This document shows, piece after piece, positions 13,971 to 29,228 of a DNA stretch of 45,446 nucleotides. A model generated the notes under the pieces. The model did not search any database, was not told where the DNA came from, and saw only the letters and a list, made by a program, of their open reading frames with translations. The DNA comes from a virus: the IMG/VR virus record IMGVR_UViG_3300025586_000135, positions 1 to 45,446 of that record. One strand, given 5' to 3'. Positions within the stretch are counted from its first letter, which is position 1. The number at the start of each line of letters is the position of its first letter. The position numbers and the translations under genes are program-made.

Positions 13971-15230
13971 ATGGTAAAACAATATAATATTGATGAATTG
14001 ATGAAAAAATGGAAACCAATCCTTGATGAAGGTACTCAATTCGGAAATGAAAAAATTAAGAAAGCAACAGCTATTATGCTTGAGAATCAGCACAATGAAA
14101 CCAATGAATCGTCATCCTATATGGGTGGTCAAATGGGTACAAGTGCTCCTACATACGGTAGCACAAATGCTATGTTTCAAAAAATAGCAGTTCCTATGGT
14201 AAGGAGAACTTTCCCGGAACTTATTGCTCATAGTATCGTTGGTGTACAGCCAATGACTGGCCCAGTTGGTTTGGCATTTGCTTTAAGATTCAGAGGTGAT
14301 AGTGATTATGGTAATCCGGATGCTGGAGTACCAACAGGTGGAGTAAATTATGAAGTTGGATACAACCGTGTAAACAACAGTTATTCATCCAGAACAGGCA
14401 CCAATCCTTCCGGTACAGCAGCAACAACCGTATCCGCAGAAGTTTGGGGTTCTAAGTTAGGTTCTGGTGTTGGTAGTGATATCGGTATCGGTAGAGGTTC
14501 GGGTCTCCATATTCGTGAAGTCAATATGACAATCGAGAAATCAGAGATTGAAGCCAACACTCGTAAATTGAGAAGCCGTTGGTCCTTAGAAGTTGCTCAA
14601 GATATTAAAGCGATGCATGGTCTTGATATCGAAGAGGAAATGATGGACGTTCTGGCTTATGAGATAACAGCTGAAATTGATCGTGAAATCGTACAAGCGG
14701 TTGATGATGTAGCAGTTCTTACCGAGTATACATGGACCACAAGCACAGATTACGATGGTAGGTGGGAGCATGAAAGATATCGTTCACTTTATAACCAAAT
14801 GATTAGAAAGGCTAATACTATCGCTGTTAATACAAGACGTGGTTCAGGTAACTTCGTTATAACATCACCAATCTTGTGTGCAGCCTTTGAAGCACTTTCA
14901 GCATTTACAGTAGCCCCAGTTAACTCTAGTGTTAATTCAGGTGTTACAGGTGTAGCAAGAGTAGGTTCCCTTGATGGTAAGATGACCGTTTATAGAGATA
15001 CCTTCTATACTGAAACAGTACAACAGTATACAGTAGGATATAAGGGACCAAGTGAGTATGACGCAGGTATCATTTACTTACCATATATTCAATTACTACC
15101 TGCAAGGGCAACATTTGAAGATTCCTTTAATCCAACAGTCGGATTGATGTCAAGATATGCCGTGCACAATCATTTATTTGGTGCAGCTAATTATTACCAA
15201 AAGGTTCGAATCACAGGCATGCCTTCATAA
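13971..15230 (+). CDS. gp23: Major capsid protein (T4 gp23-like)
   Basis: This 419-residue HK97-fold capsid subunit is about 100 residues shorter than T4 gp23. Diagnostic blocks are MKKWKPILDEG at the N-terminus, MVRRTFPELIAHSIVGVQPM (T4: MVRRAIPNLIAFDICGVQPM), LRSRWSLEVAQDIKAMHGLDIEEE, EITAEIDREIV and YTVGYKGPSEYDAGIIYLPYI. The N-terminal 50 or so residues correspond to the propeptide removed by gp21; IMLE-NQ and TNE-SS are possible cuts. It follows AAAGGAGG 22 bases after the scaffold gene, and a strong terminator follows it. Confidence 0.96.
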   Translation: MVKQYNIDELMKKWKPILDEGTQFGNEKIKKATAIMLENQHNETNESSSYMGGQMGTSAPTYGSTNAMFQKIAVPMVRRTFPELIAHSIVGVQPMTGPVGLAFALRFRGDSDYGNPDAGVPTGGVNYEVGYNRVNNSYSSRTGTNPSGTAATTVSAEVWGSKLGSGVGSDIGIGRGSGLHIREVNMTIEKSEIEANTRKLRSRWSLEVAQDIKAMHGLDIEEEMMDVLAYEITAEIDREIVQAVDDVAVLTEYTWTTSTDYDGRWEHERYRSLYNQMIRKANTIAVNTRRGSGNFVITSPILCAAFEALSAFTVAPVNSSVNSGVTGVARVGSLDGKMTVYRDTFYTETVQQYTVGYKGPSEYDAGIIYLPYIQLLPARATFEDSFNPTVGLMSRYAVHNHLFGAANYYQKVRITGMPS

Positions 15231-15328: not shown

Positions 15329-15336
15329 TATAAATA
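15329..15336 (+). promoter_or_regulatory. T4-type late promoter (TATAAATA)
   Basis: Exact TATAAATA 37 bases after the terminator, before the HNH gene start at 15379. It restarts transcription after the capsid operon. Confidence 0.55.
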
Positions 15337-15378: not shown

Positions 15379-16401
15379 ATGGGAATAAGAAGAGAAGATG
15401 GAGGAGATGTTAGTATATTAACCAAAGGTTCTCATAAAAAAATAATCTTTGCTTGTAATGTATGTAAAAAAGAAGTAACACAATCATACCAAAATTACCT
15501 AAGACAAAATAGCGGTAAGTTTTGTAGAAGTTGTAGAAACAAACATACCGCTAACAGAAAAGATGTTAAAGAAAAGCAAGCAAAAGCATCTAAAGAAATG
15601 TGGAAAAGTGAGAGTTTTAGGAAGGAAATGGGTAAACTATTATCCAAAGCCACTAAAAAAGCATGGGATAAGGATGACGGAACAAGAAGAAAAAAAATAT
15701 GGAATAAAACGCCATATAAGGAAGTACAGAAACTCATAAAATCTGTTCCGGGTCACGAATTACTAACTTCGAAAGAGGAATATGAAGAAGTGGGTAATAA
15801 GTTTAAAGTAATGTGTCCTGATGGTAGTATTATGGAAACAACTATAACACTATGGAAAAGAAACATAGAAGGTTATGTTTTTTATGACACCTATGCCTTT
15901 CAATTAGAATGGTGTGAAGAAGTAAGAAGGAATAAGGAAAATAGGGAAATATTAGAAGTTAGGTGTAAAAAATGTGATGAATGGTATGTTCTTAATACTC
16001 TTGATGTTAGTAATAGAGTACAAGCACTTAAAGGTCAATCAAAAGGTGAATGTAACCTTTATTGTTCCGAAAATTGTAAAAACTCTTGTTCTATATATGG
16101 GAAGAAGCCTGAAGTCCTAATACATAATGATGCCATAAGAGCAGGGCGTGACCCTTGGTGGAATGAACCTCGACATATGCAACCCGAATGGCGTAAAATG
16201 GTCCTTGAAAGAGATGATTATACCTGTCAGAAATGTGGTAAAACAAAAGTTTCTCTTATTGCCCATCATATCAATCCTGTAAAATTATACCCATTAGAAT
16301 CAGCCGATGTAGATAATGGGATTACTTTATGTGTTGATTGTCATGAAAAGGCCCATCAAATACCTGGATGTAGTACAGGGGAATTGGCTAATTTTTGTTA
16401 G
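15379..16401 (+). CDS. HNH homing endonuclease with zinc-finger and NUMOD-like region
   Basis: This 340-residue protein has an N-terminal Cys pair region (CNVCKK, CRSC), then a Lys-rich repeat-like segment (KEKQAKASKEMWKSESFRKEMGKLLSKATKKAW) resembling NUMOD3-type DNA-binding motifs. A middle domain with FYDTYAFQLEWCEEVR and several Cys pairs follows, then a C-terminal HNH core (ERDDYTCQKCG, AHHINP, NGITLCVDCHEKAH). Residues from about 170 to the end align with the HNH protein at 33366, while the N-termini differ, so modules have been exchanged. It sits between capsid and small terminase genes with its own late promoter, as expected of an intergenic mobile endonuclease. Confidence 0.88.
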   Translation: MGIRREDGGDVSILTKGSHKKIIFACNVCKKEVTQSYQNYLRQNSGKFCRSCRNKHTANRKDVKEKQAKASKEMWKSESFRKEMGKLLSKATKKAWDKDDGTRRKKIWNKTPYKEVQKLIKSVPGHELLTSKEEYEEVGNKFKVMCPDGSIMETTITLWKRNIEGYVFYDTYAFQLEWCEEVRRNKENREILEVRCKKCDEWYVLNTLDVSNRVQALKGQSKGECNLYCSENCKNSCSIYGKKPEVLIHNDAIRAGRDPWWNEPRHMQPEWRKMVLERDDYTCQKCGKTKVSLIAHHINPVKLYPLESADVDNGITLCVDCHEKAHQIPGCSTGELANFC

Positions 16402-16429: not shown

Positions 16430-16437
16430 TATAAATA
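16430..16437 (+). promoter_or_regulatory. T4-type late promoter (TATAAATA)
   Basis: Exact TATAAATA 17 bases before the start at 16454, with AAGGGGG between. It probably drives the terminase/PrkA group. Confidence 0.55.
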
Positions 16438-16453: not shown

Positions 16454-16633
16454 ATGAAAAATATTAAGGCTAAATGGGTCCGTTGTTGTAGTGCTGGAGG
16501 TATGGCCGTAGAAAAATATGAAATGGATATAATTATAAATCTATTAACAATTACTTTAACGGAAGCAGAAGCCGGTGCGCTTATTAATCAAATTTCTTCA
16601 ATTATAGACATACCTATGAGAGAAAGAAAATGA
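16454..16633 (+). CDS. Small hypothetical protein upstream of small terminase
   Basis: This is a 59-residue reading frame with AAGGGGG upstream and an ATGA overlap with the small terminase gene, both supporting real translation. The sequence begins MKNIKAKWVRCCSAGGMAVEK and continues with an amphipathic hydrophobic helix (MDIIINLLTITLTEAEAGAL). I do not recognise it. The coupling suggests it sets translation of the terminase gene or acts with it. Confidence 0.6.
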   Translation: MKNIKAKWVRCCSAGGMAVEKYEMDIIINLLTITLTEAEAGALINQISSIIDIPMRERK

Positions 16634-17088
16634 GTGAACTTAATAGGGAAGGATTAGCAGAGGAATTTGATTTAGAGAATATAGAGAATCAGCCTTCATC
16701 AGTATCTATATTTAAAGAAGAAGGTGAAGATCCTGATTCTATAATAAAGGATAATATTGACCGTGCTAATCGTATATTAGACCAAGTTGAAGATGAATTG
16801 GCGAATGGTAACTTTAGTGCCAGGCTTGTTGAAGTTGCAGCGAAAACTATGGATAGTGTTACCAATGCTGTCTCTCAAATTCAATCTACTGTGTATAATA
16901 ATGACTATTTACAATTAAAAAATCGTATGGTAGAATTAAAGGAGTCAGAACTTGATTATAAAGTTCAAAACTTGAAAAAACCAAATATAGGAAGTCAAAA
17001 TATCATTTTAACTGATCGTGAAAGTGTTTTAAAGGCTTTAAAAAATAATAATATGGATAAACTAAAAGAGGAGAACAAACATGAGTGA
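16630..17088 (+). CDS. terS: Small terminase subunit (T4 gp16-like)
   Basis: This 152-residue protein has the gp16 layout: an acidic N-terminus, a central helical hairpin (DNIDRANRILDQVEDELANGNFSARLVEVAAKTMDSVTNAVSQIQ) for oligomerisation, and a C-terminal segment NIILTDRESVLKALKNN resembling the short motif at the end of T4-type small terminases. It would form the ring that recognises phage DNA and regulates the gp17 motor. In T4 it directly precedes the large subunit; here about 7.5 kb intervene. It overlaps the PrkA gene by 8 bases. Sequence similarity is modest, so the call leans on layout and context. Confidence 0.75.
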   Translation: MSELNREGLAEEFDLENIENQPSSVSIFKEEGEDPDSIIKDNIDRANRILDQVEDELANGNFSARLVEVAAKTMDSVTNAVSQIQSTVYNNDYLQLKNRMVELKESELDYKVQNLKKPNIGSQNIILTDRESVLKALKNNNMDKLKEENKHE

Positions 17089-20000
17089 TTTTAGAGACAT
17101 TATTTTGAGCCAGAAAGAAGGTAAAGAAGTAGAAGAATGGGAAGGTACAGTGTTAGATTATCTTTATCTAATTAAAGAGAATCCTAATATAGTTGATTTT
17201 GCATCTGGTAGAATTTATAATACTGTTGAAGGAAGAGGTACAGAAGAAGTAGATCAATCATTAAAGACAAGAGGTTATGATGATTTAGTATCCTATAAAT
17301 TCTTTGATGATATTATCTATGGTACTAAAGAGCCTATTCATGATATCGTTAAATGGCTCAAAGCAGCCGCTCGTAGAACTGAAACTGGTAAAAGGATTCT
17401 TATTCTTGTTGGTCCTACTGCTTCTGGTAAAAGTACTATAGCCACAGCATTAAAGAGGGGATTAGAAAATGATAAAACTCCGAAATACGTTATTAAAGGA
17501 TGTCCTATTGGTATTGGTGAAGAACCACTACATGTTATACCTCATGCTGATAGACCTTATTGGGAAGATCAATTAGGTATAAAGATTGAGGGTGTTCCTT
17601 GTCCTATGTGCCAAAAAATGATTGATGAAAATTATACTGAAGATGGTGTAGTATCATGGGAAAAGATACCGGTTGTTTCTTCTTATTATTCTGAACAAAG
17701 AAGATGTGGTATTGGTACATTTTCACCATCAGATCCTAAATGTGTTAAGTGGGATACTGTATTGTTTTGTGATAATGGTATGTTATCCTTTGAAGAATTA
17801 CAAGAAAGGGTGAAGTCTAATGTTGAGGAATTTAAAGACCTTGAAATAACCGTTGATGGTATCGAAGGTGTTGAACGAACATCAAAATTCTTTAACAATG
17901 GCATACAACATATTAATAAGATCAAAACAATGTTTGGATATGAGATTGAATGCACAGATGTTCATCCACTATTAGTATTAGAAGACGGTAATGTAATATG
18001 GAAAGAGACTTCAAATCTAAAAGAAGGTGATTATGTAAGCATTAAAAAAGGTTCCATGTTATTTGGTAATGATAACATTCTTGATGATTTTAATTATAAT
18101 GGATCTCCTCCAGCCAGTATATATGTAGAATCTACTAAACCCACAAAAATGACACCAGAATTAGCAAAGGTAATGGGTTATCTTGTAGCCGACGGTAGTA
18201 TTTGTAAAAGAGATATATGGTTTACAAACACTAACAAAGATCTTGTAGATGATTTCAATCTTTGTTTTGAGAAAGTGTTCAATGTTAAACCTAAAGTATA
18301 TGAAAGAACAAATATTTTTTCAGTATCCATATCTTCTGAAATGTTGACTACCTTTTTCTTAGATGTATTAGATATGAAGAAAGGTGCTTACAACAAACAT
18401 GTTCCTTTATGTATAAGGAAATCCGATAAGGTAAGTATTCTATCCTTTTTGGATGGTTTATTCTGGGGTGACGGTACTATTTCAACAAGAAAAAAGGTAA
18501 AGAGTAATAGGTTCAAATATGCTTCAGTATCTAAGGAACTAGCAAAACAAGTACATCTAATGTTATTAAACCTTGGTATTATATCATGTCTTGATGCTGG
18601 TATCATGAACTACAATAATAATTTATGCTATACCGTAACTGTAACTGGTGATACTGTTTTGGATCTTTTAGAATTGATACCATCCTTGAAGAATAAAAAG
18701 ACTGATAATGGTGATTTTATAGGTAAGAAGGATAGGTCCAATTGGGATGTTATTCCTAATGTCTCTCCGTTATTTAGAGAAGTTATGAATGACATAAGAA
18801 AGAATGTTGGTCCTATATATAAAACCGAACTGAAGAAATATGAAAGATATCAATATCCCATAACTAAAAAAAGACCGAGAAGAAGTACAGTATTAGCTTT
18901 CTGTAACGAATCAGAAAAAATATTGAATAGATCTAGTGAAGTAATATTAGAACTTAGAAATATTTGTGGTGATAATGATACTGTTTGGTTACCTATTGTA
19001 GATATAACTGATGCTGGTTTCGATCAAGTGTACGATCTTACAGTTCCGTCCACTAATTCCTTTTGTGCTAATGGGTTTATAAACCATAATAGTCAAGATG
19101 TTAGTGAGCTTATTGGTAGACCTAATATGGCTAAACTTTCCCGTTATGGAGAAACCGATCCAAGAGGTTTTGAATTTAATGGAGAATTACAGGTCGCTAA
19201 TGGTGGTATGGTTGAAATGATTGAGTTATTAAAAACTGACATTAAACTTCAGTATGTATTGATATCATTAGCACAGGAACAAGTTATTAAGTCTCCTGGA
19301 TTCCCTCAGATGTATATTGATACATTTATCCTAGCACACACGAATCAAACAGAGTATGATATTTTTAAGGCTGATAAAAAGAATGAGGCGTTACATTCCA
19401 GGATGTATCCTATCAAGGTACCTTTAAACTTAATAGTGGATGATGAAATTAAGATTTATAAGAAGATGATTAAAGAATCTGATTTTAAGGATATTCATAT
19501 TGCTCCTAATGCTCTAAAGGTTGCTGCTCAATTTGCAGTTCTTTCAAGATTAAAACCATCTAAAAAGGTTAGTAGTATTATTGAAAAGATGAAAATATAT
19601 AATGGTGAGATTACAGAAGAATTTAAGAAAACCGAGATAGATGTCAAGACCTTAAAAGAAGAAGGTAAAGGCATGGATGAAGGTATGACTGGTATAGACC
19701 CAAGGTTTATTATTAACGCTCTGGATATTGCTCTTGGTATGAAGGAAGATAAAAAGTGCATCAATCCTATAGATGTCATAAGAACCTTGAGACAAAACTT
19801 TGAACATCAAATAGGTATTACCGATGAAGAAAAGGAAAAATATATCAATTTGCTTATTAGTGATAAAGATTCCGTGAACTGTGAGTATAAAGAAGTTGCA
19901 AAGAAGGCTGTTAATATGGCTTTTATTTATGCATATGAAGATCAAGCACAGGCTCTTTTCGGAAGGTATATGGAGAATAGCACAGCATTTTGTAAAAAGG

Positions 20001-20383
20001 AGAAAATTATTGATGATATTACTGGTGAAATCTCTGACCCCGATGAAAAGCTTATGAGGTCATTGGAGGAATTGATTGGAGTTCCAGTTAATAGTAAATC
20101 AGAATTTCGTAATGGTTTATTCGTTTATAAATCCGATGCATTAGAAAGAGGAGAAGATTTTGGTTACAATGACTATGATCCTCTAAGAGATGCCATTGAA
20201 AAGAAACTTATGAGTGATTTGAAAAATGTCGTTAATCTATCCATTGCTGATACAACTTCTACTAATCCTAAATCTAAGAAGAAAAGAGAAAAGGCTATGG
20301 AGTTATTATTGGAAAATGGGTATTGTGAATCATGTGCTCAAGTACTCTTGAAGTTCGTAGGTGAGATACTCAAAAAGCAATAA
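17081..20383 (+). CDS. prkA: PrkA-family AAA+ kinase/protease interrupted by an intein
   Basis: The precursor is 1100 residues, about 650 after intein removal, matching bacterial PrkA/YeaG. Extein blocks are diagnostic: Walker A GPTASGKST (111-119), GCPIGIGEEPLHVIP, CPMC (174-177), CGIGTFSPSDPK, then after the intein SQDVSELIGRPNMAKLSRYG, FNGELQVANGGMVEMIELLKTD, YVLISLAQEQVIK, LAHTNQTEYD, KKNEALHSRMYPIKVP. PrkA proteins are AAA+ enzymes reported as serine kinase and, more recently, Lon-like protease. In bacteria they work with YhbH/YeaH and SpoVR in starvation and sporulation. Here both partners follow in the same order. The phage role is unknown; remodelling host proteins or assisting late morphogenesis are possibilities. 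Confidence 0.94.
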   Translation: MSDFRDIILSQKEGKEVEEWEGTVLDYLYLIKENPNIVDFASGRIYNTVEGRGTEEVDQSLKTRGYDDLVSYKFFDDIIYGTKEPIHDIVKWLKAAARRTETGKRILILVGPTASGKSTIATALKRGLENDKTPKYVIKGCPIGIGEEPLHVIPHADRPYWEDQLGIKIEGVPCPMCQKMIDENYTEDGVVSWEKIPVVSSYYSEQRRCGIGTFSPSDPKCVKWDTVLFCDNGMLSFEELQERVKSNVEEFKDLEITVDGIEGVERTSKFFNNGIQHINKIKTMFGYEIECTDVHPLLVLEDGNVIWKETSNLKEGDYVSIKKGSMLFGNDNILDDFNYNGSPPASIYVESTKPTKMTPELAKVMGYLVADGSICKRDIWFTNTNKDLVDDFNLCFEKVFNVKPKVYERTNIFSVSISSEMLTTFFLDVLDMKKGAYNKHVPLCIRKSDKVSILSFLDGLFWGDGTISTRKKVKSNRFKYASVSKELAKQVHLMLLNLGIISCLDAGIMNYNNNLCYTVTVTGDTVLDLLELIPSLKNKKTDNGDFIGKKDRSNWDVIPNVSPLFREVMNDIRKNVGPIYKTELKKYERYQYPITKKRPRRSTVLAFCNESEKILNRSSEVILELRNICGDNDTVWLPIVDITDAGFDQVYDLTVPSTNSFCANGFINHNSQDVSELIGRPNMAKLSRYGETDPRGFEFNGELQVANGGMVEMIELLKTDIKLQYVLISLAQEQVIKSPGFPQMYIDTFILAHTNQTEYDIFKADKKNEALHSRMYPIKVPLNLIVDDEIKIYKKMIKESDFKDIHIAPNALKVAAQFAVLSRLKPSKKVSSIIEKMKIYNGEITEEFKKTEIDVKTLKEEGKGMDEGMTGIDPRFIINALDIALGMKEDKKCINPIDVIRTLRQNFEHQIGITDEEKEKYINLLISDKDSVNCEYKEVAKKAVNMAFIYAYEDQAQALFGRYMENSTAFCKKEKIIDDITGEISDPDEKLMRSLEELIGVPVNSKSEFRNGLFVYKSDALERGEDFGYNDYDPLRDAIEKKLMSDLKNVVNLSIADTTSTNPKSKKKREKAMELLLENGYCESCAQVLLKFVGEILKKQ
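17741..19090 (+). mobile_element. LAGLIDADG intein inside PrkA
   Basis: A 450-residue in-frame insertion (precursor residues 221-670) starts with Cys (CVKWDTVLFCDNGMLSFEEL, block A) and has TDVH in block B. It contains two LAGLIDADG motifs (LAKVMGYLVADGS and LSFLDGLFWGDGT) and ends VYDLTVPSTNSFCANGFINHN followed by Ser+1. All splice residues (C1, block B TxxH, C-terminal HN, S+1) are present, so splicing should be active. The insertion site is PSDPK / SQDVSEL, the most conserved part of PrkA, typical of intein homing. The homing endonuclease appears complete. Confidence 0.95.
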
Positions 20384-20405
20384 AATGGGGGTGATGCTTA
20401 GTGCA

Positions 20406-20462
20406 GGAGTTTACTCCATATACACCTTATGAGTAAATGTCGGAGGGTTGCCGCATTCCGAC
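20406..20462 (+). promoter_or_regulatory. Paired hairpins in the prkA-yhbH gap
   Basis: The 112-base gap holds GTCGGA (20439-20444) pairing with TCCGAC (20457-20462). Upstream, TTTACTC (20410-20416) can pair with GAGTAAA (20431-20437), competing with a tight GGAG/CTCC hairpin. No T-run follows, so it is not an obvious terminator. It may protect the RNA or adjust yhbH translation. Confidence 0.4.
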
Positions 20463-20495
20463 TTAATCAAAAATCACGCAAAAGGAGTATAAGTA

Positions 20496-21812
20496 ATGGC
20501 AATAACAGATTTTACAGATTGGGACCTAAGTGACCGTGGTTCAAAAGATGCAGAACGCCATAGAGGTAAAATTGATGATGCTATCCGTAAGGGTGTAAAG
20601 GATGTTATATCTGAAGAAAGCATCATCACTAAACGGAAAGGTCGTAAGGTACGAATACCCGTTAGGGGTCTTAAAGATTATCGTTTTGTTTATGGTAACA
20701 AGGGTAAAAATGGTTCTGCTGGCGCCGGTTCGGGTGAAGGTAAACCTGGTGATATAGTAGGTCAAAAAGATAAAAAGGATGGTGGTAATAAGCCTGGAAA
20801 TAAAGAAGGTAATGATTATATGGAAGCAGAAGTGGATATTGATTACTTGATAGACATTATGTTTCAGGATTTAGGACTACCTTGGATAGAAGAAAAGACT
20901 AAAATAGAAAAACTCGTACCTGTAGGTTGGAAGTTTGAAACAATATCTAAGAAGGGTGTTGTATCTCGCATACATAAGAAAAGAACATTTATAGAAACCA
21001 TTAAAAGGACGGCATCTTATGTGGGTGAAATTATAAGAGAAACAAATTGTACAGAAGATGATGCATATATAGCACTATCTATGGCTAAAGATGATATTAA
21101 TGAAGCTATTGATATTATAAAAGAAGACAGAATTGATAAAGATCATGAAGCTCATTTGATTATAGATGATGATGATTTAAGGTTCAAGCAAATAGAACCT
21201 GATATGACACCTCATAGTAATGCTGTTATTATAGCAATGATGGATACTTCGGGTTCCATGACCATGAATAAAAAATATTTAGCGAGGTCAATGTTGTTTT
21301 GGATGGTGGAATTCTTAAAGAAAACTTACGACCATGTGGATATTAAGTTTATACAACATACAACAACAGCAAATATAGTAGATGAAGATACCTTTTTCCA
21401 TAAAGGAGAATCAGGTGGAACATATTGTTGGACTGCCATTGATAAGGCTTTATACCTTATAGATACTGAATATCCTATTGATGAATGGAATACTTATTGT
21501 GTTTATATTTCTGACGGTGAAGATTGGGAACCACCTAAAACAATACCTTATATTGAAAGACTATTGAAGAAGAAGGTCAATATGTTTTCCTATATTGAGA
21601 TTGATACGGAAGCAGATGAAGATATGTATGGTTGGAGACCTGAAAACACCCTTATTAAAGAGATACAGAGAAAATGGAAATTCAAAGTCAAGACTATGGA
21701 AGGCACTAACTTTTATAGGAACGATGAGGAGCATTTACTATTGTCCATCATAAGAAATAAGAACCATATATGGCCTGCACTTCGTCACATGCTATTCGAA
21801 CCAAAAAGGTAA
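20496..21812 (+). CDS. yhbH: YhbH/YeaH family (DUF444) VWA-domain protein
   Basis: This 438-residue protein matches the DUF444 family, the constant partner of PrkA. The N-terminus has DLSDRGSKDAERHRGKIDDAIRKGVKDVISEESII and VRIPVRGLKDYRFVYG, followed by a Gly/Lys-rich linker (GSAGAGSGEGKPGDIVGQ). The C-terminal half is a von Willebrand A fold: MMDTSGSM (MIDAS DxSxS, about 249-255), GGTYCWTA and SDGED complete the metal site. Length equals that of bacterial homologues (about 420-430). AAAGGAGTA precedes the start. It probably forms a complex with PrkA and SpoVR, as gene order suggests. Confidence 0.94.
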   Translation: MAITDFTDWDLSDRGSKDAERHRGKIDDAIRKGVKDVISEESIITKRKGRKVRIPVRGLKDYRFVYGNKGKNGSAGAGSGEGKPGDIVGQKDKKDGGNKPGNKEGNDYMEAEVDIDYLIDIMFQDLGLPWIEEKTKIEKLVPVGWKFETISKKGVVSRIHKKRTFIETIKRTASYVGEIIRETNCTEDDAYIALSMAKDDINEAIDIIKEDRIDKDHEAHLIIDDDDLRFKQIEPDMTPHSNAVIIAMMDTSGSMTMNKKYLARSMLFWMVEFLKKTYDHVDIKFIQHTTTANIVDEDTFFHKGESGGTYCWTAIDKALYLIDTEYPIDEWNTYCVYISDGEDWEPPKTIPYIERLLKKKVNMFSYIEIDTEADEDMYGWRPENTLIKEIQRKWKFKVKTMEGTNFYRNDEEHLLLSIIRNKNHIWPALRHMLFEPKR

Positions 21813-21850
21813 TAAACAATTATGTTAATAACCAAAAAGGAGAATGTGAA

Positions 21851-22018
21851 ATGGAAATAGTAGATAAAACAGGTCAACTTAGATCGTTACAAGATTTGGA
21901 GGAGGCAAAAAAAGCTATTGAAACTTTAATAATTAAAGATGCTTTATTATTACCTTATTTAACTGTTAATGCAGGAATTATAAGAGATGCTTTAAAAGAA
22001 TGTATATCAAATAGATAA
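21851..22018 (+). CDS. Small hypothetical protein between yhbH and spoVR
   Basis: This is a 55-residue protein. ATG 21851 was chosen because AAAAGGAGAATGTGAA precedes it; an in-frame ATG further upstream lies inside yhbH. The sequence is helical (RSLQDLEEAKKAIETLIIKDALLLPYLTVNAGIIRDALKECIS). The same leader AAGGAGAATGTGAAATGGAA is repeated before the next gene at 22031, so the two starts arose by a local duplication. Function unknown. Confidence 0.6.
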   Translation: MEIVDKTGQLRSLQDLEEAKKAIETLIIKDALLLPYLTVNAGIIRDALKECISNR

Positions 22019-22030
22019 GGAGAATGTGAA

Positions 22031-22276
22031 ATGGAAGTATGGAGTCTTACCAAAGAAGATATGGAAAACAATATGGATAATGCAAAAACTGTAATTTTAA
22101 AAGGTTTAGTTGCTGATGGTTTAATAGATAAAACTATTGCTGATGATTGGTGTGCTAATAATACTATTATAATTAGAAAGAAAGGTATATTTCGTACTAT
22201 TTCTAATAAATGGTTGAAGATTAAAAAAACTGAAGAAGAAATAATGATAGTAGTAACACGAAAGGATGAAAAATGA
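22031..22276 (+). CDS. Small hypothetical protein coupled to spoVR
   Basis: This 81-residue protein shares its leader (AAGGAGAATGTGAAATGGAA) with the preceding gene and overlaps spoVR by ATGA. It has a helical N-terminal half (LTKEDMENNMDNAKTVILKGLVADGLIDKTIADDWCANN) and a hydrophobic/basic middle (TIIIRKKGIFRTISNKWLKIKK). Not recognised. Its coupling to spoVR suggests a part in the same module. Confidence 0.65.
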   Translation: MEVWSLTKEDMENNMDNAKTVILKGLVADGLIDKTIADDWCANNTIIIRKKGIFRTISNKWLKIKKTEEEIMIVVTRKDEK

Positions 22277-23784
22277 ATAAGCAAGACCTACAAAAGCTTA
22301 TAAAAGTTGAGAGTAGAATCAAACAAATTGTGAATGATGATTTGGGTTTGAAGACTTATGATGTGGAGTTCACGATTTGTAATCCTCAAAAGATGTTGGA
22401 GATTATGGCTTATCGTATACCTACCAATGTATCTTCTTGGAAGTATGGTAGAGATTATGAGCGTTTAAGAACTATATATGAAAATCACAGTTCCAACCTT
22501 CCTTATGAGGTGGTCATTAATTCCGATCCATCAATGGCTTATCTTATGAATACTAATACATTTGCTGTTCATTGTTTAGTAATGGCGCATGTATATGGCC
22601 ATGTCAATATGTCTACAGAAAATAATTACTTCAAAAATGGCAGACAAGACATAATGGGGGTATTGTCCGAAGCAACAAAAAGATTTAATGAATATGAGAG
22701 AAGATATGGTATTGATGAGGTTGAGATGATTGTGGATGCTGGCCATTCTATTCAATTACACTCAAGCCCTTTTGATATTGAAACAGAAGAAGAAAAAAGA
22801 GAAAGGATATATAATGATGTAAAGCAGAAGATAATATCCTCCCAACAAACTAAGTCCGAGTTTGGTGATTTAGTAGGTAACAATATAAGGGACATCAATG
22901 TAGACCTGGAATTGGCATTACAAAAGATAAAAAGAAATCTGAGACTTAAAACACCTGTAGAACCAACCAGTGATTTACTTAGGTATATTATTGATAATTC
23001 ACGCATTTTAGAAGATTGGCAAAAGGATATACTTGAAACCTTGAGGATGGAAGGACAATATTTCTGGCCTATGATGAAAACACATTTTTTAAACGAAGGG
23101 TGGGCCACATTTATTCACCAAAAGGTAATGAGGCAACTATTTAGAGAAGGTGTGCTCAATATAAGTGAGCATGCTCAGTATAATCATTCTAATTCCTTAG
23201 TGAAGGCTGAGAATCCTGTAGCAATGAATCCTTACCTTATTGGAACTTCTATATGGGAGGATATTGAAAAGAGATGGGATAAAGGTAGACATGGTAAGGA
23301 TTGGGATAACTGTGAAGATGCCGATGAAAAAGAAAACTGGGATACAAAGGAAGAAGGAAAGGGTTGGGAGTATTGTAAAAGTGTTATGAGGACTTATACT
23401 GATTGGTCCTTTTTTCAGAATTTTCTTACGACAGAATTGGTAGATGAACTTAATCTCTATATCTATGAAAGAAAAGAAACACCAACGACTATTGATTACG
23501 TCATCTCTAAAAAGAAAGCAGAGAATATCAGAAAAATAGTTATTAATAGTTTTGCTCATAACCATACACCACTCATAGAAGTTTTAGATGGTAATGTAAA
23601 CAATGTGGGTGATTTACTTTTTGAACATAAATGGGATAATGTAGACCTTGATGTCAGATATGCTAAGGAAACCTGTAAGCATGTATGTAGATTGTGGGGT
23701 TCAAAAGTATTTCTAAAGACAAAGGATGATGGTAAGGATATTCAATATGTAGTAGAACCATTAAGGAATATATTAAGTAGATAA
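22273..23784 (+). CDS. spoVR: SpoVR family protein
   Basis: This 503-residue protein is full length for SpoVR (about 470-510). Diagnostic blocks are PTNVSSWKYGRDYERLRTIYE, NSDPSMAYLMNTNTFAVHCLVMAHVYGH, the histidine-rich motif AHVYGHVNMSTENNYF, LNEGWATFIH, and NPYLIGTSIWEDIEKRWDKGRHGKDW followed by DWSFFQNFLTTELVDEL. SpoVR is required for spore cortex formation in Bacillus and co-occurs with PrkA and YhbH across bacteria; its biochemical activity is unsettled. The HxxGH and NEGWA motifs could form a metal site. It closes the triad and is followed by a strong terminator. Confidence 0.94.
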   Translation: MNKQDLQKLIKVESRIKQIVNDDLGLKTYDVEFTICNPQKMLEIMAYRIPTNVSSWKYGRDYERLRTIYENHSSNLPYEVVINSDPSMAYLMNTNTFAVHCLVMAHVYGHVNMSTENNYFKNGRQDIMGVLSEATKRFNEYERRYGIDEVEMIVDAGHSIQLHSSPFDIETEEEKRERIYNDVKQKIISSQQTKSEFGDLVGNNIRDINVDLELALQKIKRNLRLKTPVEPTSDLLRYIIDNSRILEDWQKDILETLRMEGQYFWPMMKTHFLNEGWATFIHQKVMRQLFREGVLNISEHAQYNHSNSLVKAENPVAMNPYLIGTSIWEDIEKRWDKGRHGKDWDNCEDADEKENWDTKEEGKGWEYCKSVMRTYTDWSFFQNFLTTELVDELNLYIYERKETPTTIDYVISKKKAENIRKIVINSFAHNHTPLIEVLDGNVNNVGDLLFEHKWDNVDLDVRYAKETCKHVCRLWGSKVFLKTKDDGKDIQYVVEPLRNILSR

Positions 23785-23806: not shown

Positions 23807-23845
23807 GGGGCTCTATCTGTATAAATAAGATAGAGCCCCTTTTTT
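23807..23845 (+). terminator. Strong terminator with a late promoter in its loop
   Basis: A perfect 12-bp stem GGGGCTCTATCT / AGATAGAGCCCC encloses a 9-base loop and is followed by six T, 22 bases after the spoVR stop. The loop is G plus TATAAATA, the T4 late-promoter motif. Confidence 0.95.
23820..23827 (+). promoter_or_regulatory. Late promoter TATAAATA within terminator loop
   Basis: Exact TATAAATA fills the loop of the terminator hairpin. Initiation a few bases downstream would fall inside the second stem arm, so new transcripts would lack the hairpin. It would serve the tagged ART-like gene and terL. Confidence 0.65.
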
Positions 23846-23870: not shown

Positions 23871-24632
23871 ATGAGATTTGAAAACTATATACTAAATGAA
23901 GGAAGGAGTAAAACTATAACAGAGGAACAGGTTATAGAAATGTTGTCTGCATACTGTTCTAAAGCTGTTAAAACCTATGCATCATCTCCTATATACAGGG
24001 GAGTGAATAACAGGGATGATTACCTCTATATATCTCCGAATCCTTTAAAACCAAGAAAGTCAGCTAATACAGCTAATTTTTATACCTTGATAATGAATAA
24101 TGCACCTAAATGGAAGAAATATCCTAAGAGACAAATTATATGTTCTACGAATAGTAATACTACTGTTGGATATAGTATAAAGGGTAATTCTTTTCAAGTA
24201 TTTCCATATGATGGAGCTAAAATAGGTGTATGTCCTACGGATGATATATGGAATTCCTTTAACAATAATTTAGATGATTTAAACATGGATATTAATACTT
24301 TATTTGAATATTTTAATGTATATGGTATAGATAACATAAAAACATATAAACAACTTATAAATGCATTTAAAAAATTAACATTACCTAAAATTTCAGATGA
24401 TGTTTGGAGTGACGACCTTGCATATCAATTAAATGATATCGATCCATTTATTTTAAAACCCTATAATACCCTTTATGATTGGGCTATGGATTTTTATGAT
24501 CCAAATAAAAACGGATTTAAAGTAGTTAAAGTGGGTTCCAAATTACCAACCGGCGATAATGAAGCATGGTTAGATAGTAAATGTGTGATGATTAGAGAAA
24601 AAAGGATGGGTTATATAATGGAGAAGTTATGA
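23871..24632 (+). CDS. Tagged ADP-ribosyltransferase-like internal protein
   Basis: This 253-residue protein begins MRFENYILNEG, fitting the capsid-targeting tag with ILNE as a cut site. The body has an R-S-E type ADP-ribosyltransferase pattern: IYRGV (R43), ICSTNSNTTVGY (about 90-101), FPYDGAKIGVCPTDDIW, and a C-terminal NEAWLDSKCVMI (E231). The same order of motifs occurs in the protein at 27958. T4 packages the ADP-ribosyltransferase Alt in its head and injects it to modify host RNA polymerase; this protein is a candidate analogue. Catalytic assignment is by motif only. It overlaps terL by ATGA, so it is made with the packaging motor. Confidence 0.65.
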   Translation: MRFENYILNEGRSKTITEEQVIEMLSAYCSKAVKTYASSPIYRGVNNRDDYLYISPNPLKPRKSANTANFYTLIMNNAPKWKKYPKRQIICSTNSNTTVGYSIKGNSFQVFPYDGAKIGVCPTDDIWNSFNNNLDDLNMDINTLFEYFNVYGIDNIKTYKQLINAFKKLTLPKISDDVWSDDLAYQLNDIDPFILKPYNTLYDWAMDFYDPNKNGFKVVKVGSKLPTGDNEAWLDSKCVMIREKRMGYIMEKL

Positions 24633-26173
24633 GTATAAGGTATGATGAAAAAAGAGTTAAAAGACCATATGCCGAACATGAATACACCAATGAAGAAATA
24701 CTGGAATTAGAAAAATGCTCTAAAGATGTAAATGCTTTCATAAAACACTTAAAGATAATTAATCCAGATAGAGGTGAGGAATTTTTTAAACCCTATGATT
24801 ATCAATGGAAATTATTGGATTTAATGGCCGATAACCGTTTTGTTTGCAGTTTGCAAAGCCGACAATCAGGAAAAACGACCGTGGTTGGTGCTTATGCATT
24901 ATGGTACTCTCTGTTTCATGCCGATAAAATTGTTGGTATAGTATCAAATAAAGAGAAGTCCGCTAAAATGATATTGAGAAGGATCAAAAGGATGTATGAA
25001 TCCCTTCCTGTATGGTTGAAATCTGGTGTTAAAAATTATGCAGAAACAACAGTGTATTTTGATAATGGTTCTCAACTTATAATTTCAGCCACTTCACCAG
25101 ATGCATTTCGTGGTGAATCTTGTAATCTCCTTATTATGGATGAGTTTGCTTTTGTACCGAAAAACCAAGCAGAAGAGTTCTGGTCATCCAATGAGCCTAC
25201 CATTGCAGCATCCGAAAAATCTAAAATTATCATCATAAGTACACCGAATGGAATGTTCAACCTTTTCCATAGGCTATATCATGGAGCTGAACATAACAGG
25301 AATCCTTTTGTCCATATGAAGGTATCTTGGCAGGATGTTCCAGGTAGAGATGAAAAATGGGCAGATGAACAAGTAAAAATATTAGGAAAAGTGAAATTTG
25401 CACAAGAATATGCCTGTGAATTCCTCGGTTCCACTCATACCGTTATAGATGCTGATATATTAGAACAAATTATAACTGAATGGGTAGACCCTCCACATAT
25501 AGATTTAGAGAATAAATTTTTGATATATGAAAAACCAGTAGAAGGATGCTCATATTGCATGGGTGTAGATACTGCAAAAGGCACAGGAGAGCATGCTTCA
25601 GCAATACAAGTACTTAAAATCAAAAGTATGAAGCCTATCAAGATGGAACAAGTTGCTGTATACATAAATAATACCATAGATGTTTATAAATTTTCTGATA
25701 CTATCAATAGGATATGCTACTACTACAATAATGCTCATATAATGGTTGAGAATAATGCTGAAGGGGCCGCGGTTGTTAGTAGATTATGGTGGGAACATGA
25801 AAATGAAAATCTTGTAAATACAGGTTCCAAAGCAGCGAATCTTGGTATAAGAGCTACAAAATCTACCAAACCTAAAGCTGTATTACTTATGAAGAAATTG
25901 ATAGAGGATTATTCATTAAAATTAGTAGATAAGGAAACATTAGAACAGCTTACTACCTTTATTGAGGAAGGTAATAGATTTTTTGGAAAGGATAAAGACG
26001 ATGATGCTGTATCAGCCTTATATTGGGCTGTTTATATACTTGAAATGAATATACTTGATGAATCATTTGAATTTAATAAGGAGAAAGAAGAGGATGGTTG
26101 GGGTATATTATCTGACATAAATATATCACAAGATGATTGGTCATGGTTATATAAATCCGAATTAACTGATTAA
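24629..26173 (+). CDS. terL: Large terminase subunit (T4 gp17-like)
   Basis: This 514-residue packaging ATPase/nuclease is shorter than T4 gp17 (610). ATPase motifs: SRQSGKTT (Walker A), a coupling region, LLIMDEFAF (Walker B with catalytic Glu), and ISTPNG (motif III). The C-terminal RNase H-like nuclease has GVDTAKG, an acidic VENN strand and KDDDAVSALYWA, giving the three carboxylates. It docks on the portal and pumps DNA into the prohead. It is separated from the small subunit by the PrkA-YhbH-SpoVR module and coupled to an internal-protein gene. Confidence 0.96.
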   Translation: MSIRYDEKRVKRPYAEHEYTNEEILELEKCSKDVNAFIKHLKIINPDRGEEFFKPYDYQWKLLDLMADNRFVCSLQSRQSGKTTVVGAYALWYSLFHADKIVGIVSNKEKSAKMILRRIKRMYESLPVWLKSGVKNYAETTVYFDNGSQLIISATSPDAFRGESCNLLIMDEFAFVPKNQAEEFWSSNEPTIAASEKSKIIIISTPNGMFNLFHRLYHGAEHNRNPFVHMKVSWQDVPGRDEKWADEQVKILGKVKFAQEYACEFLGSTHTVIDADILEQIITEWVDPPHIDLENKFLIYEKPVEGCSYCMGVDTAKGTGEHASAIQVLKIKSMKPIKMEQVAVYINNTIDVYKFSDTINRICYYYNNAHIMVENNAEGAAVVSRLWWEHENENLVNTGSKAANLGIRATKSTKPKAVLLMKKLIEDYSLKLVDKETLEQLTTFIEEGNRFFGKDKDDDAVSALYWAVYILEMNILDESFEFNKEKEEDGWGILSDINISQDDWSWLYKSELTD

Positions 26174-26220: not shown

Positions 26221-27072
26221 ATGGTAACTAAAACACAATTAATTGAACTTATAAAAAGAAACTTGGGTTATCCTATGGTCAAGGTAGAATTGGATTACAG
26301 CCAGATGGAAGATGCTGTAAATTATGCTCGTTCCAAATGGATTAAATGGGCAGTAGGAAATGCAACCCAAGAAGTGTATTTCACAATGGCTTTATCGGCA
26401 ACTCAATATATGTACGATATGCCTACTGGTGTAACAGAGGTTCTTTCTTATGGATCTAATGGTATTAGTAGTGGTATCAATACTCTTTTTACAGTTGAAA
26501 ATTATATGTATTCCAGAGGTATGTTAGATGGTCTTGTTAGTGGTTATGAAGGCTACAATTTGATATCGTATCATATAGCACGTGATTTTATAGATACTTT
26601 AAGACGTTATACTCCTGATGAATATAACTTCAAATACCATAAATATACAAATCAGTTAGAAATACAACCACCACCCGTTTCTGGAGGCTCCCTAACTTAT
26701 ACACCTAAATATGCTACTGAATTAGGTGTTGAAGTATTAGGGGATGAGATAACTATAGATTCTCCAGGATGGATATTGATTAGATGTTTTATGTTAGAAG
26801 GTGCAACTACAAGTCCAAGTTTTGAAGTAAATGATGCATATGAAAATTTTTATGATGGTGTAGGTTGGATAAAGGATTATGCTACTGCTTATAGTAAAAA
26901 AATGTTAGGTATGGTTCGAAGAAAATTTGCTTCTTTTGGTTCATTAGGTAATCAAGGTATAGCATTGGATGGTTCAGAATTAATAGGTGAAGCTGATCAA
27001 GAAATTGAAAGGCTTATGGAAGCTTTAAAGACAGAGGAATCGTATATGGGATATGATATAAGTATTGGGTAA
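26221..27072 (+). CDS. Neck / head-completion protein (T4 gp13-like)
   Basis: This 283-residue protein begins with KTQLIELIKRNLGYPMVKVELDYSQMEDAVNYARSKW, the typical N-terminal helical segment of T4-type gp13 adaptor proteins, followed by beta-rich sequence (QEVYFTMALSATQYMYDMP, YHKYTNQLEIQPPP) and a C-terminal helical region (AYSKKMLGMVRRKF). gp13 with gp14 seals the portal after packaging. GAGGAG precedes ATG 26221; the earlier ATG at 26217 hits a stop at once. Position right after terL fits a neck gene. Confidence 0.82.
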   Translation: MVTKTQLIELIKRNLGYPMVKVELDYSQMEDAVNYARSKWIKWAVGNATQEVYFTMALSATQYMYDMPTGVTEVLSYGSNGISSGINTLFTVENYMYSRGMLDGLVSGYEGYNLISYHIARDFIDTLRRYTPDEYNFKYHKYTNQLEIQPPPVSGGSLTYTPKYATELGVEVLGDEITIDSPGWILIRCFMLEGATTSPSFEVNDAYENFYDGVGWIKDYATAYSKKMLGMVRRKFASFGSLGNQGIALDGSELIGEADQEIERLMEALKTEESYMGYDISIG

Positions 27073-27076
27073 TGAT

Positions 27077-27508
27077 ATGAGTAGATTACAGAAATATTTA
27101 GATGAAGCATGGATGTATGATAGGACTACAGGTAAGAAGTTTGAGATCTTAGCTATACCACCAGATAAAATGAAGGATATTAAAGACCTCAAGGTTCATA
27201 GTGAAGGTATTAGGTTTACAGCTGACAATAAATCTAAAACTCTTTATGTATGGGATTCTTATAAAGCTAACCACTCTGCTGTTTGGGTAAATGTAATAGG
27301 TAAGGGTAGAACATATATTTGTGACCCTAATACTAAAGTTCTACAAGGTGGTGCTACAAAGAGTGGTAGTAAGTGGGATATGGATAGCTGGGATGATTAT
27401 GAGTATAAATTCTATAGTGAACCAAAAAGAGCAATCAAAAAAGCATTCAAATGGGTTGAAAGATATATCAATTTAGATTATATGGATAGATGGGATGATA
27501 ATAATTAA
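27077..27508 (+). CDS. Tagged internal-protein paralogue 1 (RFTADN/YVW family)
   Basis: This is a 143-residue protein; ATG 27077 was chosen because it gives the conserved start MSRLQKYLDEA shared by its neighbours (an in-frame TTG at 27065 also exists). The body has FEILAIPPDKMKDI, IRFTADNKSKTLYVWDSYKANHSAVW and a C-terminal FKWVERYINL. Three other proteins in this cluster share this layout. Not a family I can name. A head-packaged, injected protein is the best inference from the tag. A conserved His within AxHxxxW could be functional. Confidence 0.75.
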   Translation: MSRLQKYLDEAWMYDRTTGKKFEILAIPPDKMKDIKDLKVHSEGIRFTADNKSKTLYVWDSYKANHSAVWVNVIGKGRTYICDPNTKVLQGGATKSGSKWDMDSWDDYEYKFYSEPKRAIKKAFKWVERYINLDYMDRWDDNN

Positions 27509-27509
27509 T

Positions 27510-27956
27510 ATGAGTAGACTACAGAAATATTTAGAGGAAGAATGGATCAAAGTGTACAAGAAGAAATTCGAAGTGCTTGTAAATCCTAAATCTAGAGATA
27601 TAATGTCCATTACTAATACTCAAAAAATAGTTAGGTTCACAGCTGATAAGACTACAAAGAAAGTGTATGTATGGCATTTTGCTGAAGCCATCCATTCGGA
27701 TATATGGAAGAAGATTGTAGGTAAAGGAAGGGATTTCGATGATGAATCTTTTCAAAATGCCATACATGGAGTAGCAAGGCTGAAAGGGAGTAAATGGACA
27801 ATGACAGGTTCAGACCAATGGAGTAATTTATGGAATGATATGGAAGGTCATTATGATATGTTATTCAAGGATTTCAAATGGGTCAATCAGTATATAGAAG
27901 TTTCTAAATATTTTAGGGACCAATATGATAAAGACAAAAGAGTGGGAATATTCTAA
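27510..27956 (+). CDS. Tagged internal-protein paralogue 2 (RFTADN/YVW family)
   Basis: This 148-residue protein starts MSRLQKYLEEE one base after the previous stop. Shared blocks: FEVLVNPKSRDIMSI, VRFTADKTTKKVYVWHFAEAIHSDIW, GKGRDF, AIHGVARLKGSKWTM and FKWVNQYIEVSKYF. The tag is conserved at DNA level (ATGAGTAGACTACAGAAATA). The tandem arrangement points to recent duplication with divergence of the body. No clear ribosome binding site is seen, so translation is probably coupled to the upstream gene. Confidence 0.75.
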   Translation: MSRLQKYLEEEWIKVYKKKFEVLVNPKSRDIMSITNTQKIVRFTADKTTKKVYVWHFAEAIHSDIWKKIVGKGRDFDDESFQNAIHGVARLKGSKWTMTGSDQWSNLWNDMEGHYDMLFKDFKWVNQYIEVSKYFRDQYDKDKRVGIF

Positions 27957-27957
27957 A

Positions 27958-28809
27958 ATGAGCAGACTACAGAAATATCTAAATGAGGATAAAGGTAAGG
28001 CTATAGGATATAATGAATTAGTAGTTAGGGAATTTAAATCCTTTTATCCTGATATAGAAAAGGATTGTAAACCTTACATAACTGAGTTCAAGAAGTCTAA
28101 ATCCTTACGATTCCTTTATAGGGGAACAGAAAGAAAGATATCCGATTTTAGAATACTTAAATCTTACATAAAAACTGGTAGACAACCGAAAGATACACCT
28201 GAAGAGCTTCATAATCTGTTAAATGACCTATTTTCTGATAAGTTCCGATGGAATGTAAGAGATGGTGTATCTACAAGTAGTGGTACGAGTACTGCTGGTT
28301 ATGGGACAACTTATTTATTCTTTCCTATTGGTAGATATGAATATGCATGGTCTCCTGATATAGATGATTTATGGACTGAAATAGAACAGGAGAGTAATTT
28401 TGAAGAACCCGAACCAGATTTAGGTGTTGTAGAAGATGAATATGATGAAGAATATGGGGAATATCAATCAGGCCATTGGGAATATGATGGAGAAGTTATA
28501 GATGATCCAACTGATGTACAAGTGGACTTAGAAGATAAAGGAGAACTATTTGATGAAATGCTTATTCAATGGGTACCTGATGTAGAATTGGATGATTATA
28601 TAGAGCAAAAAGCGAGACACTATGTAGATGATAGAGAAAATTTTCTCTATAGACTTGTAAAAACTTATACAGATATGGGTTTATTTAAAGCTATAAAATC
28701 TAAACATGAAGTATTGTTTAATTGTAAGAAATATTACCTTGTAAATAAAGATTATGAGGATCTATTTGCAGAAGTTTTGATAGGTAATACTAAAATAGAG
28801 GATTTATAA
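27958..28809 (+). CDS. Tagged ADP-ribosyltransferase-like internal protein
   Basis: This 283-residue protein starts MSRLQKYLNED, with LNE as a cut site. ATG 27958 is used because it begins the tag one base after the previous stop. The pattern is FLYRGT (R55), RQPKDTPEELHNLLNDLF, VSTSSGTSTAGYGTTYLFFPIGRYEYAWSPDIDDLW (S105-T106-S107) and HEVLFNCKKYYLV (E251). This resembles R-S-E ADP-ribosyltransferases and matches the motif order of the protein at 23871. An acidic, Tyr-rich insertion (about 147-180) separates the halves. It is a candidate T4 Alt-like effector; the target is unknown. Confidence 0.68.
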   Translation: MSRLQKYLNEDKGKAIGYNELVVREFKSFYPDIEKDCKPYITEFKKSKSLRFLYRGTERKISDFRILKSYIKTGRQPKDTPEELHNLLNDLFSDKFRWNVRDGVSTSSGTSTAGYGTTYLFFPIGRYEYAWSPDIDDLWTEIEQESNFEEPEPDLGVVEDEYDEEYGEYQSGHWEYDGEVIDDPTDVQVDLEDKGELFDEMLIQWVPDVELDDYIEQKARHYVDDRENFLYRLVKTYTDMGLFKAIKSKHEVLFNCKKYYLVNKDYEDLFAEVLIGNTKIEDL

Positions 28810-29228
28810 TGAGATTACAGAAATACCTATTAAAAGAAGCAAGAGTAAAACAAACTGATGCTGATGTATTTTTAGATGAATATGCTCCAACTTTCATGTG
28901 GAATCCTAAAGATGGGTTTCTATGGTCTGTATATGATAAAAAAAAGGATAATTGGTTATATTATAAAGAATCTAAAAAATTAAGAGGTCGAAAGGATGAT
29001 AATTCTTTTATGGAACATGGTACTATATTAGATGTTTATGATAAAAAATCAAATTATGATGATGTGGATGATTTTATCAGAGGACGTATAAATCCTAATG
29101 GAAAGATAATTTATATACATGATTTAGGAAGTAGAGGAATGAATGCTGTAGATGCTAAAAAATTTGATAAGTGGGTTGATAAAACAGTAAATATGGTATA
29201 TAAGTATATGGATGATTATATAAGATGA
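28809..29228 (+). CDS. Tagged small protein, unknown body
   Basis: This 139-residue protein starts MRLQKYLLKEARVKQ, sharing the tag and overlapping the previous gene by TAATG. T4 internal protein III begins MKTYQEFIAEARVGAG, so even the residues after the cut (KEARV / AEARV) look alike. The body (FLWSVYDKKKDNWLYYKESKKLRGRKDD, IIYIHDLGSRGMNAVDAKKFDKWVDKTVNMVYKYMDDYIR) is not homologous to the RFTADN paralogues and is not recognised. Confidence 0.72.
   Translation: MRLQKYLLKEARVKQTDADVFLDEYAPTFMWNPKDGFLWSVYDKKKDNWLYYKESKKLRGRKDDNSFMEHGTILDVYDKKSNYDDVDDFIRGRINPNGKIIYIHDLGSRGMNAVDAKKFDKWVDKTVNMVYKYMDDYIR

Follow-up and report, generated by a model that had tools for sequence, protein, structure and literature searches.

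A conserved PrkA-YhbH-SpoVR gene trio in the predicted late packaging operon of T4-like phages

The PrkA-YhbH-SpoVR locus

The viral record IMGVR_UViG_3300025586_000135 of IMG/VR was analysed over positions 1 to 45,446, and this whole stretch of 45,446 bases is called the window below. It derives from the part of a T4-like phage genome that carries the structural genes, and it encodes PrkA, YhbH (DUF444) and SpoVR in this order, between a T4-type small-terminase-like gene and a large-terminase gene (Table 1). This arrangement of the three genes, here called the trio, had been reported with intact motifs by a first-pass annotation made from the sequence alone, and the Pfam matches together with the Walker A, metal-ion-dependent adhesion site (MIDAS), HxxGH and NEG motifs confirmed it.

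The profile searches proposed in that annotation matched all three families. The window PrkA passed the curated Pfam cut-offs with both of its domains (AAA_PrkA, 322.8 bits; PrkA C-terminal domain, 227.7 bits; cut-off 25 each) and was aligned to a solved relative, 9xip, with an E-value of 4e-191. YhbH scored 307.6 bits against a DUF444 cut-off of 27, while SpoVR reached 326.9 bits (cut-off 27) and its SpoVR_C domain 35.3 bits (cut-off 27.6). The Walker A motif of PrkA reads GPTASGKS, and its G, K and S are kept in E. coli and in all 51 of the T4-like relatives described below. The same holds for the D, S, S, T and D of the YhbH MIDAS motif (DTSGS...T...D), which are invariant in the 51 relatives and E. 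coli. SpoVR contains the HxxGH and NEG motifs, and its residues H106, H110, E275 and H282 are invariant in 51 of 51, a His/His/Glu/His set which suggests a metal site. An assignment of SpoVR to the HExxH zinc metalloproteases was rejected, as its motif is HVxGH (V in 49 of the 51) without the catalytic Glu and no significant fold match was found in the PDB. When the trio was searched with PADLOC for anti-phage defence systems, YhbH and SpoVR had no match and the PrkA open reading frame (ORF) gave only P-loop and homing-endonuclease cross-hits; a role in anti-phage defence was therefore set aside.

Table 1. Genes and signals at the trio locus of the window
Feature	Coordinates	Strand	Basis
PrkA (AAA+ ATPase) ORF including intein, 1100 aa	17081-20383	+	Pfam AAA_PrkA 3.6e-96, PrkA C-terminal domain 2.5e-67
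Intein of 450 aa with LAGLIDADG endonuclease domain, PrkA residues 221-670	17741-19090	+	Pfam Intein_splicing 7.3e-19, LAGLIDADG_3 1.2e-19
YhbH/YeaH, DUF444, vWA domain with MIDAS motif	20496-21812	+	Pfam DUF444 2e-91
SpoVR, putative metal-site protein (H106, H110, E275, H282)	22273-23784	+	Pfam SpoVR 2e-97, SpoVR_C 1.2e-8
Small terminase (T4 gp16-like; likely), first conserved operon gene	16630-17088	+	25-member profile against PDB; conserved synteny
Large terminase TerL (gp17-like)	24629-26173	+	Pfam Terminase_6N 1.7e-19, Terminase_6C 5.9e-8
Late promoter match TATAAATA upstream of the small-terminase operon	16430-16437	+	Sequence match
Intrinsic terminator after SpoVR, with TATAAATA (23820-23827) in the loop	23807-23845	+	Sequence and fold
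gp23, T4-type major capsid protein, upstream neighbour	13971-15230	+	Pfam Gp23 9e-98; PHROG major head protein 1.6e-90
Small ORF 1, 55 aa, outside the conserved module	21851-22018	+	Duplicated leader GGAGAATGTGAAATGGAA; no matches beyond copies of this phage
Small ORF 2, 81 aa, outside the conserved module	22031-22276	+	Leader GGAGAATGTGAAATGGAA; weak phrog_31803 2e-4
Protein with capsid-targeting-like N-terminus, outside the trio, between SpoVR and TerL	23871-24632	+	phrog_12810 1.5e-39; N-terminal motif

Operon organization

The gene preceding prkA had no Pfam or PHROG match. The only PDB matches of its 25-member profile were the T4-type small terminases 3txq and 3txs, both weak (E 0.014-0.017), and from this profile and its position the gene is likely, though not certainly, a small terminase (TerS). 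It overlaps prkA by 8 nt. Among the relatives, TerS and PrkA genes overlap or lie at most 20 nt apart in 29 of 47 cases (19 of the 47 overlap), and the largest spacing does not exceed 151 nt.

The T4-type late promoter match TATAAATA occurs 20 times on the plus strand and 5 times on the minus strand of the window, with 11.6 expected on both strands together. Besides the match upstream of the TerS operon (Table 1), a further one is found at 15329. The terminator that follows spoVR consists of a perfect 12-bp stem (23807-23839) and a T6 run, with a folding energy of -26.1 kcal/mol (z -6.4). As its loop contains TATAAATA, a single element would end the TerS-trio unit and start the TerL unit. The predicted layout is thus late promoter-TerS-PrkA-YhbH-SpoVR-terminator, with a new late promoter for TerL. 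A similar distribution was observed in the relatives: TATAAATA precedes TerS by no more than 300 nt in 23 of 44 loci (3.0 expected), and 24 of 36 SpoVR-TerL gaps contain it (1.3 expected). Late promoter matches were absent from the TerS-PrkA gaps (0/18) and the YhbH-SpoVR gaps (0/20), and were present in 8 of 55 PrkA-YhbH gaps. The late promoter, strong terminator and probable late expression that had been noted for the module are supported, at the level of sequence, by these matches, by the hairpin and by the pattern in relatives. The data support late expression of the trio together with head and packaging genes, in the window phage as well as in its relatives.

Conservation and descent in T4-like phages

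Profile scans of viral contigs yielded 497 relatives for PrkA and 340 for SpoVR, and the best 80 of each were used. The order gp23-TerS-PrkA-YhbH-SpoVR-TerL was found in 73 fetched viral loci, overlapping loci of one contig being counted separately, so that the scan for the triad beside terminase in T4-like phages, also suggested by the first-pass annotation, recovered a conserved arrangement. An inversion of the head genes in two loci (L066 and L128) leaves the five-gene block from TerS to TerL whole.

Clustering of SpoVR at 85% identity left 51 T4-like representatives, and in a concatenated tree their trios form one clade with a Shimodaira-Hasegawa (SH) support of 100 and a stem of 0.5. Over 31 genomes, the mean identity of PrkA (66%) is close to that of gp23 (68%) and higher than that of TerL (61%). 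Trio distances correlate with TerL distances (Mantel r 0.57-0.78, p 5e-4), and the pairwise ratios of nonsynonymous to synonymous substitution rates (dN/dS) of the trio, mostly 0.03-0.2, are similar to those of TerL and gp23. Judged by these comparisons, the trio genes are old and under long purifying selection. A recent capture from a host would nest shallowly among bacteria and was rejected, since the 51 members instead form a clade of their own with the long stem and full support given above. The phylogeny against bacterial homologues thus showed no very recent insertion with decaying genes.

When the TerL profile was scanned, relatives of at least 47% identity were separated from other T4-like phages of at most 40%. 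SpoVR lies upstream of TerL in 25 of the 31 informative loci of the former group and in none of the 36 of the latter. Of the six loci without SpoVR, L262 and L269 are short fragments that allow no decision and L277 is recoded and divergent; the other three are considered with the function of the trio. Taken together, gene order, selection and promoter signals indicate that the trio belongs, as a fixed and functional component, to the late programme of a T4-like phage clade.

One member of the 51-member clade, L064, has the trio without a visible terminase. A volactin-like gene of the actin family (L064:3-749) flanks its trio, and GT9 and VanY-like genes are close by.

Inteins in the trio genes

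The prkA ORF reaches 1100 aa because it contains an intein of 450 aa, which the earlier annotation had overlooked. The Intein_splicing domain scored 68.5 bits against a cut-off of 35.8, and the segment has an N-terminal Cys, a C-terminal HN and a Ser at position +1 (SDPK/C...HN/SQD). The PrkA of another T4-like phage, L004, has the empty site, reading SDPM-SQDVSELIG where the window reads SDPK-[C...HN]-SQDVSELIG. By its splicing domain, its terminal residues and this empty homologue, the segment fits an intein, and the spliced mature PrkA would be 650 aa long. A homologous intein, 51% identical, occupies the same site in the PrkA of L080, the exteins of which are 64% identical to those of the window.

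Inteins also occur in the partner genes of other phages, beside the MIDAS threonine in yhbH (L030) and at NEG(WA) in spoVR (L077 and L011). These YhbH and SpoVR inteins (L030:12438-15074, L077:5282-7978 and L011:9926-11833) sit at slightly shifted positions and in unrelated phages. Inteins prefer conserved positions of needed proteins. Their presence at conserved motifs of all three trio proteins, in different phages, is therefore indirect evidence that these motifs matter, and points independently to strictly constrained sites.

The trio in other phages

Outside the T4-like clade, the Thermus phage Lalka27a has the order portal-minor head-YhbH-SpoVR-PrkA-TerL, and in the Thermus phage phiYS40 TerL is encoded three genes beyond the trio on the opposite strand. 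A second, large viral group also has the order YhbH-SpoVR-PrkA. Within this group, the L368-type phages (about 15 contigs) show a tightly packed arrangement, gp23-adaptor-x-x-YhbH-SpoVR-PrkA-x-x-tail sheath, while in most contigs of the group the trio is not between gp23 or the neck adaptor and the tail sheath. The link between the trio and virion genes recurs across lineages but is no rule. Terminase linkage as a universal rule was rejected, as huge phages and most contigs of the second group have other neighbours.

In trees, the other phage trios were placed apart from the T4-like clade, often beside different bacteria. One common origin in phages for every trio was not supported, the approximately unbiased (AU) test giving p 0.035 for the two main viral clades. 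Several separate uptakes of the trio by phages are thus indicated by the phylogeny. By SpoVR sequence, the nearest bacterial relatives are Bdellovibrionota, and members of the trio families are present in E. coli, Thermus and Haloferax as well. Two further candidates were discarded: a GroEL link beside PrkA in L092 (phrog_5725), since Pfam gave no chaperonin in L092 or its relatives, and the yeaGH genes of Enterobacter phage LAU1, which are probable host DNA at the end of the record.

Neighbouring genes

Two small genes with duplicated leaders had been described as embedded in the module between yhbH and spoVR. The duplication stands, as the leader GGAGAATGTGAAATGGAA of small ORF 1 recurs ahead of the ATG at 22031. 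Their membership in the module does not, for both ORFs are confined to the window phage and relatives have homing nucleases at that spot; the first of them probably starts at 21851, not at 21770. Homing-type nucleases (HNH, GIY-YIG and others) crowd this region in T4-like phages, for example at 15379-16401 of the window and in the yhbH-spoVR interval of L003 and L004.

Seven window genes (23871-24632 and 27065-30098), six of them in tandem, share an N-terminal motif like (S)RLQKYLxE, with 0.9 expected by shuffling. The motif resembles the capsid-targeting sequences of T4, which the prohead protease cleaves, and these genes probably encode head proteins that are internal or injected. A comparable but larger tandem family occurs in L003.

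Other observations concern the terminase region of the relatives. In the T4-like phages L274 (419-1906) and L277 (1975-3459), TerL reads through seven to eight in-frame TGA codons, mostly at tryptophan positions (TGA=W recoding). The TerL of L004 (9945-15582) is broken up by split segments that resemble inteins and flank free-standing nuclease genes, and TerL is also interrupted in L275, L080 and others. In L270 (4680-6920), a PIN-PhoH-like gene with an apparent intein is found in the terS-terL slot.

Possible function of the trio

AAA+ ATPases encoded beside MIDAS/vWA proteins are usually ATP-driven remodelling pairs which act on a third complex. For PrkA and YhbH, such a pairing is inferred from gene adjacency, motifs and a weak RavA match. 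On the AAA+/vWA plan of RavA-ViaA, MoxR and CbbQ-CbbO, PrkA would form an ATP-driven AAA+ ring and YhbH would serve as its adaptor via the MIDAS metal site, while SpoVR, with its conserved His/His/Glu/His site, would be the third component, either a metal-dependent effector or a coupled client. The complex would be made with TerS in the last phase of infection, and its probable target would be a late multiprotein assembly, either proteins of the head, portal or packaging apparatus or the machinery and envelope of the host, with which assembly has to contend.

Our leading, if tentative, explanation is that PrkA and YhbH form a machine for which SpoVR is the effector or client, that this machine is produced late alongside TerS, and that it probably targets virion assembly or packaging. 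Among the possible targets of the complex, virion assembly ranks first, because the trio is found again among head, packaging or tail genes in unrelated lineages. The narrower proposal, that the trio remodels head, portal or terminase proteins and that T4-like and Thermus phages acquired it from bacteria on more than one occasion for their late structural operons, appears rather unlikely. Of the assembly chaperone or protease suggested in the first-pass annotation, the chaperone part corresponds to the leading explanation, whereas kinase and protease activities of Bacillus PrkA are disputed (PMC13001217). B. anthracis PrkA is an AAA+ protein of clade III which oligomerises with ATP, and its protease and kinase activities are negligible, none being clear (PMC13001217).

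Several observations weigh against an assembly role. In L273 and L275, TerS is near TerL and the trio is absent; in L270, SpoVR and the trio are absent from 171 kb and PhoH occupies the slot. The trio is therefore not universal in the clade and is dispensable in some lineages. In huge phages it lies beside DNA polymerase or topoisomerase, away from structural genes, and in L092 it is near PhoH and glycosyltransferases. The Ralstonia jumbo phage RsoM2USA carries the trio genes with TerL about 140 kb away by annotation (PMC8504454). The AU rejection of a joint T4-like and second-group clade is weak, as is the support for independence of the two T4-like lineages. The position of the trio may come from one old insertion and vertical descent, not from function. 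Finally, neither a shallow model of SpoVR (predicted local distance difference test score, pLDDT, 72.5) nor a deep one (pLDDT 91.8) had a significant PDB match, and SpoVR is for this reason given no enzyme class.

The main rival is an auxiliary host-physiology module, by which the phage would supply its own stationary-phase or starvation trio so that a slow or starved host stays productive up to lysis, the late operon giving only late expression. We regard this as possible but doubtful. The bacterial genes are tied to stress and starvation, and osmotic stress hurts B. anthracis prkA mutants (PMC13001217). SpoVR is also the most abundant 'sporulation' auxiliary metabolic gene in an oxygen-minimum-zone virome (PMC8940887), and uptake of the trio by several lineages of phages, in some of which it is remote from structural genes, fits a general benefit. 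However, genes of this kind are usually early or middle and patchy, whereas the trio appears to be late, is co-transcribed with TerS as judged from the promoters, and is conserved like capsid genes.

Late expression adjoining head genes would also fit trio proteins that travel inside the particle and, once injected, have an early effect on the next host, and large T4-like phages do package enzymes. This is improbable, because a capsid-targeting-like motif is present on none of the 153 trio N-termini of the 51 phages, although seven neighbouring window genes have it; an AAA+ ring of subunits of about 70 kDa would, moreover, be bulky cargo. Less probable still is the block or hijack of sporulation proposed earlier. 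It is suggested by the gene names and by the action of spoVR and prkA in Bacillus sporulation, but the families are also present in Haloferax and in non-spore-formers such as E. coli, the cultured trio phages infect Thermus, the nearest SpoVR bacteria are Bdellovibrionota, and the phage trio proteins do not cluster with Bacillota (one sequence sampled). Hitchhiking cargo, namely an operon of bacterial origin that entered a permissive site once and has been retained without selected function, is hardly tenable: relatives do have other genes in the terS-terL gap (a nuclease and PhoH in L270, nucleases in others) and inteins and homing nucleases are common there, but the idea is contradicted by the low dN/dS, by motif residues kept in 51 of 51 and by a gene order kept over deep divergence.

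The trio is thus more likely part of finishing particles or infection than a set of 'sporulation genes'. Bacteria carry PrkA-YhbH-SpoVR very widely, yet there is no agreement on its biochemical role, and the assembly-machine explanation, if true, would reveal this role. A phage clade in which the trio is strongly selected and subject to late control within a small-terminase operon is a compact testable system in which particle formation can be the readout.

Comparison with known systems

Phage copies of the trio genes are already known as annotations. An open-access literature search found no description of a fixed, late-regulated and selected trio in a small-terminase operon, an absence which is not proof. 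The bacterial prkA-yhbH-spoVR genes (yeaG-yeaH and ycgB in E. coli; operons in Bacillota, Bdellovibrionota and Bacteroidota) belong to the same three families. The gene order of the window trio is that of bacterial operons such as L161, L199 and L248, and its motif residues are those of E. coli. Unlike the bacterial trio, those of the phages group in a separate, long-stemmed clade, lie in a TerS operon under predicted phage late promoters and contain inteins.

The Thermus phages phiYS40, TMA, phiLo, MN1 and Lalka have a complete trio, annotated as SpoVR, serine kinase and conserved protein. Theirs differs in its order, YhbH-SpoVR-PrkA, and forms a separate clade, and these phages are not of T4 type. 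The trio, or at least PrkA and SpoVR, is also present in RsoM2USA (PMC8504454) and in the huge uncultured phages LR745206, LR756511, LR756502 and LR756504, where, in contrast to the window, it is far from terminase wherever the latter is visible. Some trios of this type are nested among bacterial sequences and therefore represent separate captures.

In RavA-ViaA, MoxR-vWA and CbbQ-CbbO, an AAA+ ATPase gene adjoins a vWA/MIDAS gene, as in PrkA-YhbH, and PrkA has a weak profile match to RavA (E 0.001). These systems have no SpoVR partner and their likeness to the trio is functional only. PrkA has its own Pfam family, and the B. anthracis protein was classed in AAA+ clade III (PMC13001217). In marine viral contigs, spoVR has been described as a viral auxiliary 'sporulation' gene and read as promoting host sporulation (PMC8940887). 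Its place in a late virion-linked operon in several phage groups calls for caution in virome surveys that count viral spoVR in this way, since here spoVR is one part of a trio which, in some T4-like phages, lies inside predicted late packaging or structural operons.

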